Assembly: GCF_007992195.1 (NCBI RefSeq)
Contig: NZ_BJZU01000063.1
Span: 1-64,000 of the forward strand
Length of the DNA stretch: 64,000 bases
Direction of reading: 5' to 3'
From: Methylobacterium oxalidis
GTDB lineage: Bacteria > Pseudomonadota > Alphaproteobacteria > Rhizobiales > Beijerinckiaceae
Numbering within the stretch: position 1 is the first letter of the stretch; each line of letters opens with the position of its first letter. The notes below the pieces were generated by a model. That model worked only from the letters and a program-made list of their open reading frames with translations. It was not told where the DNA came from and searched no databases. The translations under genes were made by a program, and so were the position numbers. Of the stretch, positions 47,513 to 58,052 are shown in pieces.

Positions 47513-47538
47513 GGAACCCTGTTCCGAGGGCTGCCGTT
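47513..47538 (+). promoter_or_regulatory. Putative EcfG (general stress) promoter
   Basis: GGAAC at 47513-47517, a 17-base spacer, and CGTT at 47535-47538 match the EcfG consensus exactly. It is 59 bases before the GTG of the PRC-barrel gene. PRC-barrel genes are frequent members of the general stress regulon in this group. Confidence 0.7.
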
Positions 47539-54476: not shown

Positions 54477-54653
54477 ATGGCATCGACCCCCTCGCAGCAG
54501 TGGGATGAGGGCAAGGCGGCCAAGCGCGCCGGCAAGCCCGACACGGCGAACCCGTACGAGGCGGGGTCCCAGGAGAGCGCGGACTGGCTCGACGGCTTCA
54601 CCAGCGACGAGCCGGAGCAGAACGTGGATCGGCCGGAGCGCGGCGAGGGCTGA
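54477..54653 (+). CDS. RMF-like small protein (ribosome modulation factor family)
   Basis: A 58-aa acidic protein with an excellent ribosome site (AGGAGGA) seven bases before the ATG. The pattern W9-x-x-G-x-x-A-x5-G19-x5-NPY27-x9-W37-x-x-G40 resembles the core of ribosome modulation factor and the RMF/CrpP family: E. coli RMF has G-x3-G near the start, a PY pair in the middle and W-x-x-GW at the end. RMF dimerises 70S ribosomes in stationary phase. Unlike RMF this protein is acidic, not basic, so ribosome binding is doubtful and another target is possible. Confidence 0.72.
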   Translation: MASTPSQQWDEGKAAKRAGKPDTANPYEAGSQESADWLDGFTSDEPEQNVDRPERGEG

Positions 54654-54700: not shown

Positions 54701-54937
54701 CTAATCGGCCTCGTCGAAGTTGAGGGACAGGCGGGCCCGGAACAGGACAGTTCCGCCCGCATCCCGCACAGCCGCCACGCAGTGTTGATGATCGATATCC
54801 GCCTGAAAACCTTGAGCGATGGCTGACATGATGCCGACGACGCGCTCGCGCACGGCCGTGATATCTGCAGCCTCAAATCCATCCCGGTCCTGAATGTGCT
54901 GCGAGCCGTCGTGAAGATCGATGTGATAGCGCGGCAT
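54701..54937 (-). CDS. DUF6894 family protein
   Basis: A 78-aa protein beginning MPRYHIDLHDGSQHIQDRDG, with the family middle segment ADITAVRERVVGIMS and C-terminal AVRDAGGTVLFRARLSL. It is a paralogue of the protein at 50891-51181 but shares only the family pattern. Function unknown. It converges on the RMF-like gene with a 47-base gap. Confidence 0.75.
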   Translation of the reverse strand: MPRYHIDLHDGSQHIQDRDGFEAADITAVRERVVGIMSAIAQGFQADIDHQHCVAAVRDAGGTVLFRARLSLNFDEAD

Positions 54938-55548: not shown

Positions 55549-55659
55549 ATGCGAAGCCGCGAGAGCGGATCGGCCACTCTGCTCACGGACATCCTCCTGT
55601 CCGTTCTCCTCCTCGGCATCTTCGCCACCGGCTTCACCCTCGTCTCGCTGGGCTACTGA
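55549..55659 (+). CDS. Very small single-span membrane protein (36 aa)
   Basis: A 36-aa protein: polar start MRSRESGSATLL, then one membrane segment (TDILLSVLLLGIFATGFTLV) and a short SLGY tail. GGAGGAG lies eight bases before the ATG, close to an ideal ribosome site. It ends 16 bases before an EcfG-like promoter. Small membrane proteins of this kind often regulate a larger membrane partner. It was too short for usual gene calling. Confidence 0.65.
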   Translation: MRSRESGSATLLTDILLSVLLLGIFATGFTLVSLGY

Positions 55660-55675
55660 AGGCGCTCGGGTCAGC

Positions 55676-55701
55676 GGAACGGCGCCGCTCGACCTCGCGT
55701 T
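55676..55701 (+). promoter_or_regulatory. Putative EcfG (general stress) promoter
   Basis: GGAAC at 55676-55680, a 17-base spacer and CGTT at 55698-55701: an exact consensus match, 53 bases before the start codon of the exported repeat protein. Confidence 0.7.
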
Positions 55702-55754
55702 GCCGTCAACGATCGCCGCGGGTCCAACGCGACGCGAACCCAGGGAGATGCCCT

Positions 55755-56030
55755 ATGAAAGCCGTCACGCTCGCCATCGCCACCACGCTCGTCCTCGGTT
55801 CGGCCGCCCTGGCCGCGGAGGGAGGCTCCGGGACGAGCCGGTCCGGAACCATGAACAGCACCGGGCCGAACGATGCCGGTGCCGGTTCGTCGCCGGGTGC
55901 GGCGGGCAGCGGCCCGTCGACGGGCGACAAGAGCCGCTCGGGCACCACGAACACGACCGGCGCCAACGATGCGGGCTCGGGCTCGTCGCCCGGCGCGCAC
56001 GGCAAGGGCAGCAGCCACGGCGCCCACTGA
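55755..56030 (+). CDS. Exported Gly/Ser-rich repeat protein (91 aa)
   Basis: Signal peptide MKAVTLAIATTLVLGSAALA, then two 26-residue repeats at residues 28-53 and 60-85. They share SRSGT-x-N-x-TG-x-NDAG-x-GSSPGA. The mature protein is Gly/Ser/Thr/Asn-rich, with no cysteine, and ends in a His-containing tail (GKGSSHGAH). It is probably periplasmic or secreted and disordered. GGGAG precedes the ATG. An exact EcfG promoter upstream suggests a stress role. Function unknown. Confidence 0.8.
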   Translation: MKAVTLAIATTLVLGSAALAAEGGSGTSRSGTMNSTGPNDAGAGSSPGAAGSGPSTGDKSRSGTTNTTGANDAGSGSSPGAHGKGSSHGAH

Positions 56031-56108
56031 GGCGTACCACGCCGCCGCTGCGGGGTTCTCTCCCCGCACGGCGCTCTCCGTCGGCCGCCCGGCGCCAGCG
56101 GCCCGCCG

Positions 56109-56300
56109 TCAGGCGGGCGTGCGCCGGCGCTTCGGCCTCGCCCGGCGCTTGCGCGCGGACTTCTTTCCCGTCGCGGACTTGATCATCTCGGCAGCGGCGA
56201 GCTGTTGCTGCCGGCGCATCGCCGATGTCGCCGTGCCGATCCACCAGCCGGCGGCCCGGTTCGCGGCCGAGAGCCACAGGCTCATCGCAGGATTCTTCAT
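56109..56300 (-). CDS. Small amphipathic protein with basic tail (63 aa)
   Basis: Begins MKNPAMSLWLSAANRAAGWW, a Trp-containing amphipathic helix, continues IGTATSAMRRQQQLAAAEMI, and ends in a Lys/Arg block (KKSARKRRARPKRRRTPA). The basic tail could bind DNA, RNA or polyphosphate; the front half may associate with membranes or storage granules. GAGG lies six bases before the ATG. I do not recognise the family by name. Confidence 0.62.
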   Translation of the reverse strand: MKNPAMSLWLSAANRAAGWWIGTATSAMRRQQQLAAAEMIKSATGKKSARKRRARPKRRRTPA

Positions 56301-56437
56301 GCGGACCTCGCGGGGACAGGGAGCTGTCGTCCGGGGACAACGCGCGAGCGGCCGCCGGTTCACCCGGCCCGCGTCCCCGATTGCGCGGGAGCGCGCGGCC
56401 GCGGTATCCGCGGATGACCAGGGCGGAAGGTTCCTCG

Positions 56438-57256
56438 ATGACGTTTCTCCGAACGGTGTCCCTCGATGCGTCGGAGGCGGCCGCCCACGGCACTGCGCTC
56501 AGCCGCCTGCGCGCCGACGACGAGCAGGCCGTCGTCGTCCGGAATGTCTTCAGTGCGGAGGAATGCGCCGCCATCGTCGCGGACCTCGAAGCGAACAGGC
56601 CTGGCTTTCCGGCCACCTCGTTCCCGGCGCCGTTCCGCTCCTCGTTCTACGGGATGAACCTCAATCTCGCCGACCCGAGCCTGCGCGCGTATTTCGAGAT
56701 GGAGCCATCCTTCTCGCGAAGCCTCGCGGCTCTGATGGCACCCTACGGCGGCTTCGAGGCGCGGGTCCTCCGCCTGCTCTCGGCGCTCGACGGCGGACGG
56801 CCCTACGGCGCTCCGCCGGGTCCCGGAAGCGCCGGTCCCTACATGGTCACGACCTTCCGCTCCCACCGGGAGGGCGGCTACATCCCGCCCCATTTCGACA
56901 ACGAGCAGCGGATACGGCCGAGCTACGAGCACCTGGAGACGCTGATCGACGGCGACATCTTCTCCTTCGTGCTGACTCTCTCCCGGGCCGAGCAGGGCGG
57001 GATGCTCGAGGTCTTCGACGCAAAGTCCGAGGCGTGGTCCGCCCGCTTCCAGAACCGGGACCGCCCCGTGCCGAAGCCCGACGTCGCGGCCTTCGCCCGC
57101 CACGCCTTCGACGTCGAGGCGGGGACGATCGTGCTGCTGCGGTCGGGCCGCTTCCTGCACCACGTCTCTCCCGTGATCGGCACCACCCGGCGCTGGACGG
57201 CCTGCTCGTTCATGGCCGAATCCCGCGGGAGGGATCGCGTCCACTGCTGGGGCTAG
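56438..57256 (+). CDS. 2OG-Fe(II) oxygenase
   Basis: A 272-aa non-haem iron dioxygenase. The HxD pair is His152 and Asp154 in IPPHFDNEQ; the distal histidine is in RFLHHVSPVIGTTRRWT, where the following Arg residues (251/252) fit 2-oxoglutarate binding. The N-terminal 100 residues (VVVRNVFSAEECAAIVADLE) match the prolyl-hydroxylase-like fold. The substrate is unknown; such enzymes hydroxylate amino acids, peptides, lipids or nucleobases. The gene ends four bases before the methyltransferase, so the two form one operon. GGAAGG precedes the ATG. Confidence 0.82.
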   Translation: MTFLRTVSLDASEAAAHGTALSRLRADDEQAVVVRNVFSAEECAAIVADLEANRPGFPATSFPAPFRSSFYGMNLNLADPSLRAYFEMEPSFSRSLAALMAPYGGFEARVLRLLSALDGGRPYGAPPGPGSAGPYMVTTFRSHREGGYIPPHFDNEQRIRPSYEHLETLIDGDIFSFVLTLSRAEQGGMLEVFDAKSEAWSARFQNRDRPVPKPDVAAFARHAFDVEAGTIVLLRSGRFLHHVSPVIGTTRRWTACSFMAESRGRDRVHCWG

Positions 57257-57260
57257 GCCG

Positions 57261-58052
57261 GTGCCCCGGGTCCCGGCCTACTTCGACGCGTTCCTGGCCG
57301 CCGTCGCGACAGGGGCCGAGATCGACCACGTCCATCTCGGCCACTGGGACGAGCCCGACGCGCTGGGTCCCAGGCGAGCCCGCGCCACCTTCGCCGCGGC
57401 GCAGGTGCGCCTGAGCGAGCGGCTGGTGGACCTGCTCGGGATCCGCGCCGGCGACCGTGTGCTGGATGTGGGCTGCGGCTTCGGCGGTACGCTCCGCGCG
57501 CTGCGCCTGAGCCATCCGGGCGCCGACCTCGTCGGCCTCAACATCGACGCGCGTCAGCTCGCGGTCAGCCTGGGCCGCGAGCCCGCACCGACGAACGCGA
57601 CCTGGATCGCCGCGGACGCCTGCCGCCTCCCCTTCGCGGCCGCGAGCTTCGACCGGCTCCTCTGCGTCGAGGCAGCCTTCCACTTCGCGAGCCGGGCCGC
57701 GTTCCTCGCGGAGGCGAGCCGGGTGCTCAGCCCCGGCGGCGTGCTGGCGATGAGCGACTTCGTTCTCGCGCGCCCCCCGCTCCCGCCCGGGGTGGTCGCG
57801 GCCTTCGAGGAGAGGCTGGAGGCGGAGTTCGGCCCCTGGCCGGACAAGTGGACCGCCCTCGACGAGATCGGGCGCGATGCGGCGCGTGCCGGCCTCGCCC
57901 TCGCCGTGCAGGACGCCACGCGTCACACGGGCCCGAGCTACCACACGATCGCGCCGGACGATCGGACCGGCCTCACCGGCGGCGCCGTCCTGCGTGAGCT
58001 CCACCGGACCGGCTGCCTGCGCTACCTCTATCTGCGCCTCGAGAAGCGATGA
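57261..58052 (+). CDS. SAM-dependent methyltransferase
   Basis: Class I methyltransferase of 263 aa. Motif I is VLDVGCGFGGT (residues 67-77), followed by the acidic loop VGLNIDARQL and post-I segment AADACRLPFAAASFDRLLCVEAAFHF (in two parts). The N-terminal YFDAFLAAVATGAEIDHVHLGHWDEP resembles natural-product and small-molecule O/N/C-methyltransferases of the RebM/EryG and sarcosine methyltransferase group. The GTG start is four bases after the oxygenase stop. Paired with an oxygenase it suggests a hydroxylate-then-methylate route on an unknown substrate. Confidence 0.83.
   Translation: MPRVPAYFDAFLAAVATGAEIDHVHLGHWDEPDALGPRRARATFAAAQVRLSERLVDLLGIRAGDRVLDVGCGFGGTLRALRLSHPGADLVGLNIDARQLAVSLGREPAPTNATWIAADACRLPFAAASFDRLLCVEAAFHFASRAAFLAEASRVLSPGGVLAMSDFVLARPPLPPGVVAAFEERLEAEFGPWPDKWTALDEIGRDAARAGLALAVQDATRHTGPSYHTIAPDDRTGLTGGAVLRELHRTGCLRYLYLRLEKR

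Follow-up and report, generated by a model that had tools for sequence, protein, structure and literature searches.

Hapalindole-type gene clusters contain isonitrile synthases and Stig cyclases, and the hapalindole-type aliphatic halogenases WelO5, AmbO5 and Wi-WelO15 belong to the Pfam family PF22814. According to an excerpt of PMC8407142, the substrates of WelO5 and AmbO5 are free alkaloids of the hapalindole type, and an excerpt of PMC13244439 states that Fe/2-oxoglutarate (2OG) halogenases have Gly or Ala where hydroxylases have Asp or Glu. Here I describe a relative of these enzymes in Methylobacterium oxalidis. It is encoded, together with a class I S-adenosylmethionine (SAM) methyltransferase, in a stretch of 64,000 nucleotides (assembly GCF_007992195.1, contig NZ_BJZU01000063.1, positions 1 to 64,000), which is called the window below. 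The two genes look like one half of a four-enzyme tailoring module, and the module may serve a locus built around a giant surface protein. In the following, genomes, contigs and loci carry the handles G, C and L. The two genes of the window are:

56438..57256, + strand: WelO5-family 2OG-Fe(II) oxygenase, 272 aa, predicted hydroxylase (PF22814, model fold, invariant HxD...H)
57261..58052, + strand: class I SAM methyltransferase, 263 aa (Methyltransf_11, MitM match), the partner of the oxygenase

The oxygenase is a member of PF22814, matching the family at 180.3 bits (cut-off 27) over residues 7-272 of 272. In the PDB, it matched only WelO5 and its close relatives, both by sequence at E 1 and by profile at E 0.01; WelO5 itself was reached at E 1.7e-18 by sequence and 7.7e-39 by profile. 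The best sequence match was 5IQU, which the excerpt of PMC8407142 gives as the G166D variant of WelO5. The predicted model (pLDDT 91.3) has the WelO5 fold, with a TM score of 0.90 to 5iqs_A, and the best structure from outside the family among the 50 rows shown scored 0.60 (3w20). A first-pass annotation, made from the sequence alone, had noted an intact HxD...H motif. This was confirmed as H152-F-D154 ... H241, and the triad is invariant in an 18-row and a 9-row alignment that together hold 20 different sequences with identities down to 43%. The His ligands line up with those of WelO5. Since HFD, and not the halogenase-type HxG/A, occupies the iron site in all 20 homologues, a hydroxylase of the WelO5 family is predicted. 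Membership of PF22814 and the WelO5 fold would also suit a halogenase like WelO5, but Asp fills the halide site in every aligned homologue where halogenases have Gly or Ala (excerpt of PMC13244439); a halogenase identity was rejected on this ground and seems very improbable. Thus, the oxygenase resembles WelO5, AmbO5 and Wi-WelO15 in its whole-length homology and fold but differs in HxD for HxG, in its proteobacterial host and in its company, namely a methyltransferase, two B12 radical-SAM partners and a giant-surface-protein locus. PF22814 was found in 3 of 385 genomes of the class, the window's own and two with distant members (45.6 and 42.7 bits). No relative of the oxygenase was found in viral contigs, searched by peptide patterns, or in plasmids.

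The methyltransferase matched Methyltransf_11 at 72 bits (cut-off 21.2), and its best PDB match was MitM (E 1.3e-24), which is also a class I enzyme of Methyltransf_11 but has a different partner and context. Of the 111 genus genomes examined, nine carry the oxygenase and the methyltransferase, in every case both and side by side; the four-base gap between them recurs in 5/5 relatives measured. Two genes for B12-binding radical-SAM proteins are present in exactly these nine genomes as well. They are paralogues of about 460 aa each, 41-43% alike and side by side. In G014, both proteins have the B12-binding and radical-SAM domains over cut-off, and their CxxxCxxC motifs read GCPLSCRFC and GCPFTCSFC. 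For the first of them, TokK and CysS were the sole PDB matches at E 0.001, and all NCBIfam scores lay under the cut-offs. Judged by domains and motif, the two enzymes are probably B12-dependent and C-methyltransferase-like. They share their domains with TokK, CysS and KedN5, which are methylcobalamin radical-SAM C-methyltransferases, but differ in being about 460 aa long and in lying side by side as two paralogues. No plasmid relative of the first radical-SAM protein was found at E 1e-20. Beyond the nine genomes, partial cases are a weak match in G030 and a fragment in G075. The latter (G075:C1:2649058-2649330) is a 91-residue match (47%) to part of a module radical-SAM gene and possibly a remnant; G075 carries the giant gene described below and lacks the module.

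Seven of the nine genomes have all four genes next to one another. The module is split in the window's genome, with the pair on contig C63 and the radical-SAM genes on C121, and in G013, where the two halves lie at 5.66 and 2.77 Mb, 2.9 Mb apart. Is this arrangement confined to the genus? Fifteen named loci were compared, 4 from Methylobacterium/Methylorubrum and 11 from elsewhere at 43-57% identity. The methyltransferase adjoins the oxygenase in all of them (11/11 outside the genus). Both radical-SAM genes are found in 11 of the 15 loci and at least one in 13; outside the genus, at least one is found in 9/11 and both in 7/11. The two loci without them are L093, whose contig ends just past the methyltransferase and which has none in the 10 kb upstream, and L094, a contig of 5.5 kb. 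The earlier proposal of a tailoring pair is therefore supported by its adjacency throughout and by its place inside a larger tailoring set. That the window pair is half of a four-gene module, and that the module is genetically linked to the giant locus described below, is well supported.

In six of the nine module genomes, the module lies directly downstream of a giant gene. It begins 147-357 bp after the giant gene in 5/5 joined loci (G014, G062, G043, G037 and G059), and in G022 it directly follows the C-terminal part of the giant. Uninterrupted frames encode 16,297 aa (G014), 15,321 aa (G062) and 15,138 aa (G043); other open frames range from 13,628 aa (G007) to 15,436 aa (G075), including 14,207 aa in the window's genome (C21), and several further giant genes are cut at contig ends or interrupted. 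The N-terminus carries a LEPR-XLL domain (NF012209, 27.1 bits against a cut-off of 17 in G062), which reads FDPLEPRVLLN in the window's genome, and RTX repeats are present in the C-terminal part. In G037, the giant gene is broken by an opposite-strand gene of 407 aa (G037:C1:2731388-2732611), transposase-like by eye. At G013:C1:2006001-2025400 and G059:C1:271056-278369, the frame is apparently broken or shifted while the module is kept, possibly through sequencing error. The module is also carried by the laboratory strain Methylorubrum rhodesianum DSM 5687, apparently with an uninterrupted giant gene, and by Methylobacterium sp. Leaf123, where a shift in the giant frame is likewise apparent.

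The surroundings of the giant gene were examined in nine genomes (G000, G003, G007, G013, G014, G037, G043, G059 and G062). All nine have genes for SapC, a radical-SAM protein, a protein here called p291, a tryptophan-halogenase-like flavoprotein, an O-methyltransferase, DUF3467, a GAF-HlyD protein and a PqqD-M50-HlyD protein. A SecA paralogue and an adaptor were found in 8/9 (in G059 they would lie beyond the stretch), a kinase-like protein in 8/9, with none found in G007, and an AraC-type regulator in 7/9, with none found in G000 or G013. As seen in G062, the M50/HlyD protein includes a fused PqqD domain (PF05402 at 26.6 bits, above the cut-off of 23.4), a domain of the type of the recognition elements (RRE) of ribosomally synthesized and post-translationally modified peptides (RiPPs). 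The nearest NCBIfam model of the M50 protein is the daptide protease, at 163.7 bits and below the cut-off of 300. G003 has the giant and no module; the last 700 residues of its giant are 85.7% identical to those of the module-bearing G062, and the gene after its giant starts like the one found in G037 behind the second radical-SAM gene.

The giant N-terminus was found in 18 of the 111 genomes, including all nine with the module, and p291 in exactly the same 18. Relatives of the M50 protein at 71% identity or more occur in these 18 too, with more distant ones in 7 others. The nesting of the module within the giant genomes has a Fisher p of 1e-8, kinship ignored. A tree was made from 17 M50 protein sequences of these genomes, G110, which is split over contigs, being excluded. 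It takes 4 changes to place the module label on this tree, at least 3 of them on starred branches; thus, gain or loss of the module happened repeatedly among giant-bearing genomes.

What might the giant locus make? Scans of p291 homologues gave no Pfam match (three scanned) and no NCBIfam match (one scanned). The p291 model has ten strands in five pairs. In Foldseek, its first 21 rows (all with E of at most 0.001) are aromatic prenyltransferases, led by AmbP1 and FamD1 of Fischerella. The 50 rows shown in VIA (Z 9.7-13.3) are without exception prenyltransferases, acting on free or on peptide substrates, and the best row (Z 13.3, rmsd 4.0, 244 residues aligned) indicates the ABBA fold. p291 is therefore probably an ABBA-type protein with the fold of aromatic or indole prenyltransferases, although its substrate is not readable from the matches because the sequence identity is about 10%. 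In this prenyltransferase-fold protein, with AmbP1 and FamD1 as its first rows, the linked locus is akin to the hapalindole-type systems.

The flavoprotein of the giant locus aligns with tryptophan halogenases. The catalytic Lys and the WxWxIP motif, functional motifs of flavin-dependent tryptophan halogenases, are present in 5/5 aligned halogenase chains. The flavoprotein of the window's genome has Ala for the Lys and WTSRLP for WxWxIP, and in G062 and G003 these places hold Arg and WTASLP; the residues that mark a tryptophan halogenase are thus lacking. In G007, a pattern search did not locate the region. At E 0.001, the flavoprotein matched only QhpG in NCBIfam, at 43.3 bits and under the cut-off of 240. 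Since both halogenase-type active sites are changed, the two halogenase-family enzymes linked to the giant locus, the oxygenase and the flavoprotein, both look like hydroxylases. A role of the C-terminal domain of the flavoprotein as a second prenyltransferase was considered and rejected, as it has no similarity to p291 and no PDB profile match. Relatives of this domain (L163:1905-2732, G000:C21) seem to be separately encoded in L097 and L088.

Among the 11 module loci outside the genus, relatives of giant-locus genes were found within the fetched stretch of four. These are:

L087: SapC, radical SAM, p291, flavoprotein, kinase, giant N-terminus
L088: SecA, adaptor, kinase, partial flavoprotein
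L091: SecA, M50, GAF-HlyD, SapC
L097: p291, radical SAM, O-methyltransferase, DUF3467, partial flavoprotein, adaptor

A LEPR-like N-terminus on a large frame was read in L087 by pattern and in L097 by eye only. The support from these loci is qualified by the count of p291 in one of the 385 class genomes, the window's own; with p291 so rare, chance is an improbable explanation for its presence next to the module in two distant lineages. A single plasmid relative of p291 was found, in Pontibrevibacter (L175, NZ_CP049813.1). There, a gene for an autotransporter-like protein of 3,926 aa without the LEPR motif is directly followed by genes for p291 and a radical-SAM protein, and the tailoring module is absent from the 39.6 kb read. 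The operon (NZ_CP049813.1, 34-20572) also encodes a calcium-binding protein, DUF3467 and an M50-like protein, and is mostly annotated as hypothetical.

I propose that an optional tailoring module, of which the window pair is one detached half, serves the product of the giant locus, and put the probability of this reading at about 0.58. The giant locus would yield a prenylated aromatic group, probably indole or tryptophan, as a free compound or attached to a residue of the giant protein that is exported. The WelO5-like enzyme would hydroxylate an unactivated carbon of this group, the methyltransferase might cap the new hydroxyl, or else a different heteroatom, and C-methylation would fall to the two radical-SAM enzymes. 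The SecA paralogue, the PqqD-M50-HlyD protein and the GAF-HlyD protein are the likely export set.

Several observations weigh against this proposal. The module is absent from 9 of the 18 giant genomes, so that the giant locus manages without it. Shared ancestry inflates the nesting of 9 in 18, and 53 of 500 label shuffles on the M50 tree needed as few as 4 changes. Seven of the 11 distant loci (L089, L090 and L092-L096) have no giant-locus partner within the fetched stretch, several of these stretches being short. In the window's genome itself, the pair does not lie beside the giant locus on C21; G046 has, next to the pair, a large frame of another, autotransporter-like kind; and the giant frames appear interrupted in G037, G059 and G013, all of which carry the module. 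For p291, the model has moderate confidence (pLDDT 80.5, five models 59.6-80.5), the TM scores across the 21 best Foldseek rows are 0.36-0.54, and the sequence profile matched no prenyltransferase in the PDB. Finally, no substrate or precursor was identified.

The nature of the product divides two further explanations. The module may make or decorate a free small molecule, such as a prenylated indole alkaloid, which is exported through HlyD proteins, the giant being a co-inherited neighbour or a matrix. WelO5 and AmbO5 themselves use free hapalindole-type alkaloids (excerpt of PMC8407142), the structure matches of p291 lead with AmbP1 and FamD1, and the seven distant loci without a giant-locus partner point the same way. 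On the other hand, the giant and p291 share the same 18 genomes, the PqqD domain fused to the M50/HlyD protein points to peptide handling, and on the Pontibrevibacter plasmid the 3,926-aa autotransporter-like gene directly precedes p291 and a radical-SAM gene. I regard a free product as a real possibility that falls somewhat short of even odds. Alternatively, the module may be a post-translational modification system acting on residues or the leader of the giant before export. Its position directly downstream of the giant in six genomes argues for this, as does the assembly of the giant, p291, the radical-SAM protein, the PqqD-M50-HlyD protein and the SecA paralogue in one locus. The nearest NCBIfam models, QhpG and the daptide protease, presumably have roles in peptide or protein modification, both matches being under cut-off. 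But no core motif was found, the C-terminal 700 residues of the giant are much alike in G062 with the module and G003 without it, and WelO5 itself uses free molecules, so this explanation is put forward only tentatively.

With RiPP and protein-cofactor maturation systems the giant locus shares the PqqD domain, and its M50 protein and flavoprotein come nearest to the daptide protease and QhpG; it differs in that those cut-offs are not reached and that its largest gene encodes a surface protein of 13-16 thousand residues. No RiPP-type precursor peptide was noticed at the giant locus, where no systematic precursor search was made. A more specific form of the proposal is that aromatic residues of the giant (e.g. 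tryptophan) are prenylated by p291, oxidised by the flavoprotein and, in some species, hydroxylated and O- and C-methylated by the module. This version is rather unlikely as it stands; if true, it would mean hapalindole-like chemistry on an exported LEPR-XLL protein of 13-16 thousand residues, a new kind of surface-protein decoration.

The first-pass annotation had placed the pair in a candidate stress or tailoring locus and suggested that it may modify a product, possibly one of the small proteins encoded beside it. All five coding features that it claimed, its promoter motif and the four-base gap were located in the sequence. Besides the pair, these are:

55549..55659, + strand: membrane ORF, 36 aa; neighbour only, with almost no conservation
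55676..55701, + strand: EcfG-type promoter motif of the repeat gene, exact GGAAC-N17-CGTT; outside the module
55755..56030, + strand: Gly/Ser-rich repeat protein, exported, 91 aa; neighbour only, outside the tailoring module
56109..56300, - strand: basic 63-aa protein; neighbour only, adjoining the repeat gene in other genomes too

The proximity of these genes in the window's genome and the conserved EcfG-type motif of the repeat gene speak for such a link. In the 10 best-scoring loci among the 70 genomes that carry the repeat gene, GGAAC-N15-18-[CG]GTT lies 64-79 nt 5' of the start in nine, the window's own among them, so the motif is not a chance match; its background is 31 of 8701 160-nt windows over all loci and 0 of 399 non-overlapping windows within the window. 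Genome-wide, the exact GGAAC-N17-CGTT was matched 43 times and its reversed control pattern 19 times, and a second exact match lies at 47513-47538 of the window. A GGAGGAG sequence was found upstream of the 36-aa ORF.

The pair and the small genes are, however, distributed independently. The repeat protein occurs in 70 of the 111 genomes (8/9 with the pair and 62/102 without) and the 63-aa protein in 43 (6/9 and 37/102). The 36-aa protein has a single weak match outside the window's genome, in G013 (48%, E 7e-4), away from the pair. Around the other eight pair loci, matches to the small proteins are weak and of low complexity only; the best (E 2e-6, 45%) sits in the methyltransferase gene of L027, in another frame. 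The repeat gene and the 63-aa gene also adjoin each other, with varying orientation, at 8 places outside the window, spread over 7 genomes (G013, G012 twice, G102, G025, G021, G100 and G030). The six genomes besides G013 lack the oxygenase-methyltransferase pair, and in G013 the two genes (C1:5986043-5987137) are about 328 kb from it. In other genomes, e.g. G041 and G062, they are apart. The comparison of related genomes, which the first-pass annotation had itself named as the check, thus separates the small genes from the pair. With so many pair-less genomes carrying the small genes, modification of these proteins by the pair was rejected, the stress-locus reading fell with it, and the idea is hardly credible any longer. 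Further upstream, the window encodes a 58-aa protein (54477-54653, + strand) with a sub-threshold match to ribosome modulation factor (24.2 bits, cut-off 27.9), adjoined by a DUF6894 protein (54701-54937, - strand). Both genes are kept beside the pair in G013.

No description of the module or giant-locus system was found in a search of the open-access literature. The results point to natural WelO5-family hydroxylases in proteobacteria with fixed partners; a strict co-occurrence links these enzymes to the giant LEPR-XLL proteins and to a family of prenyltransferase fold that has no Pfam match. They offer natural HxD counterparts for studies of the switch between halogenase and hydroxylase, and the role of the maturation machinery around the LEPR-XLL giants becomes testable.

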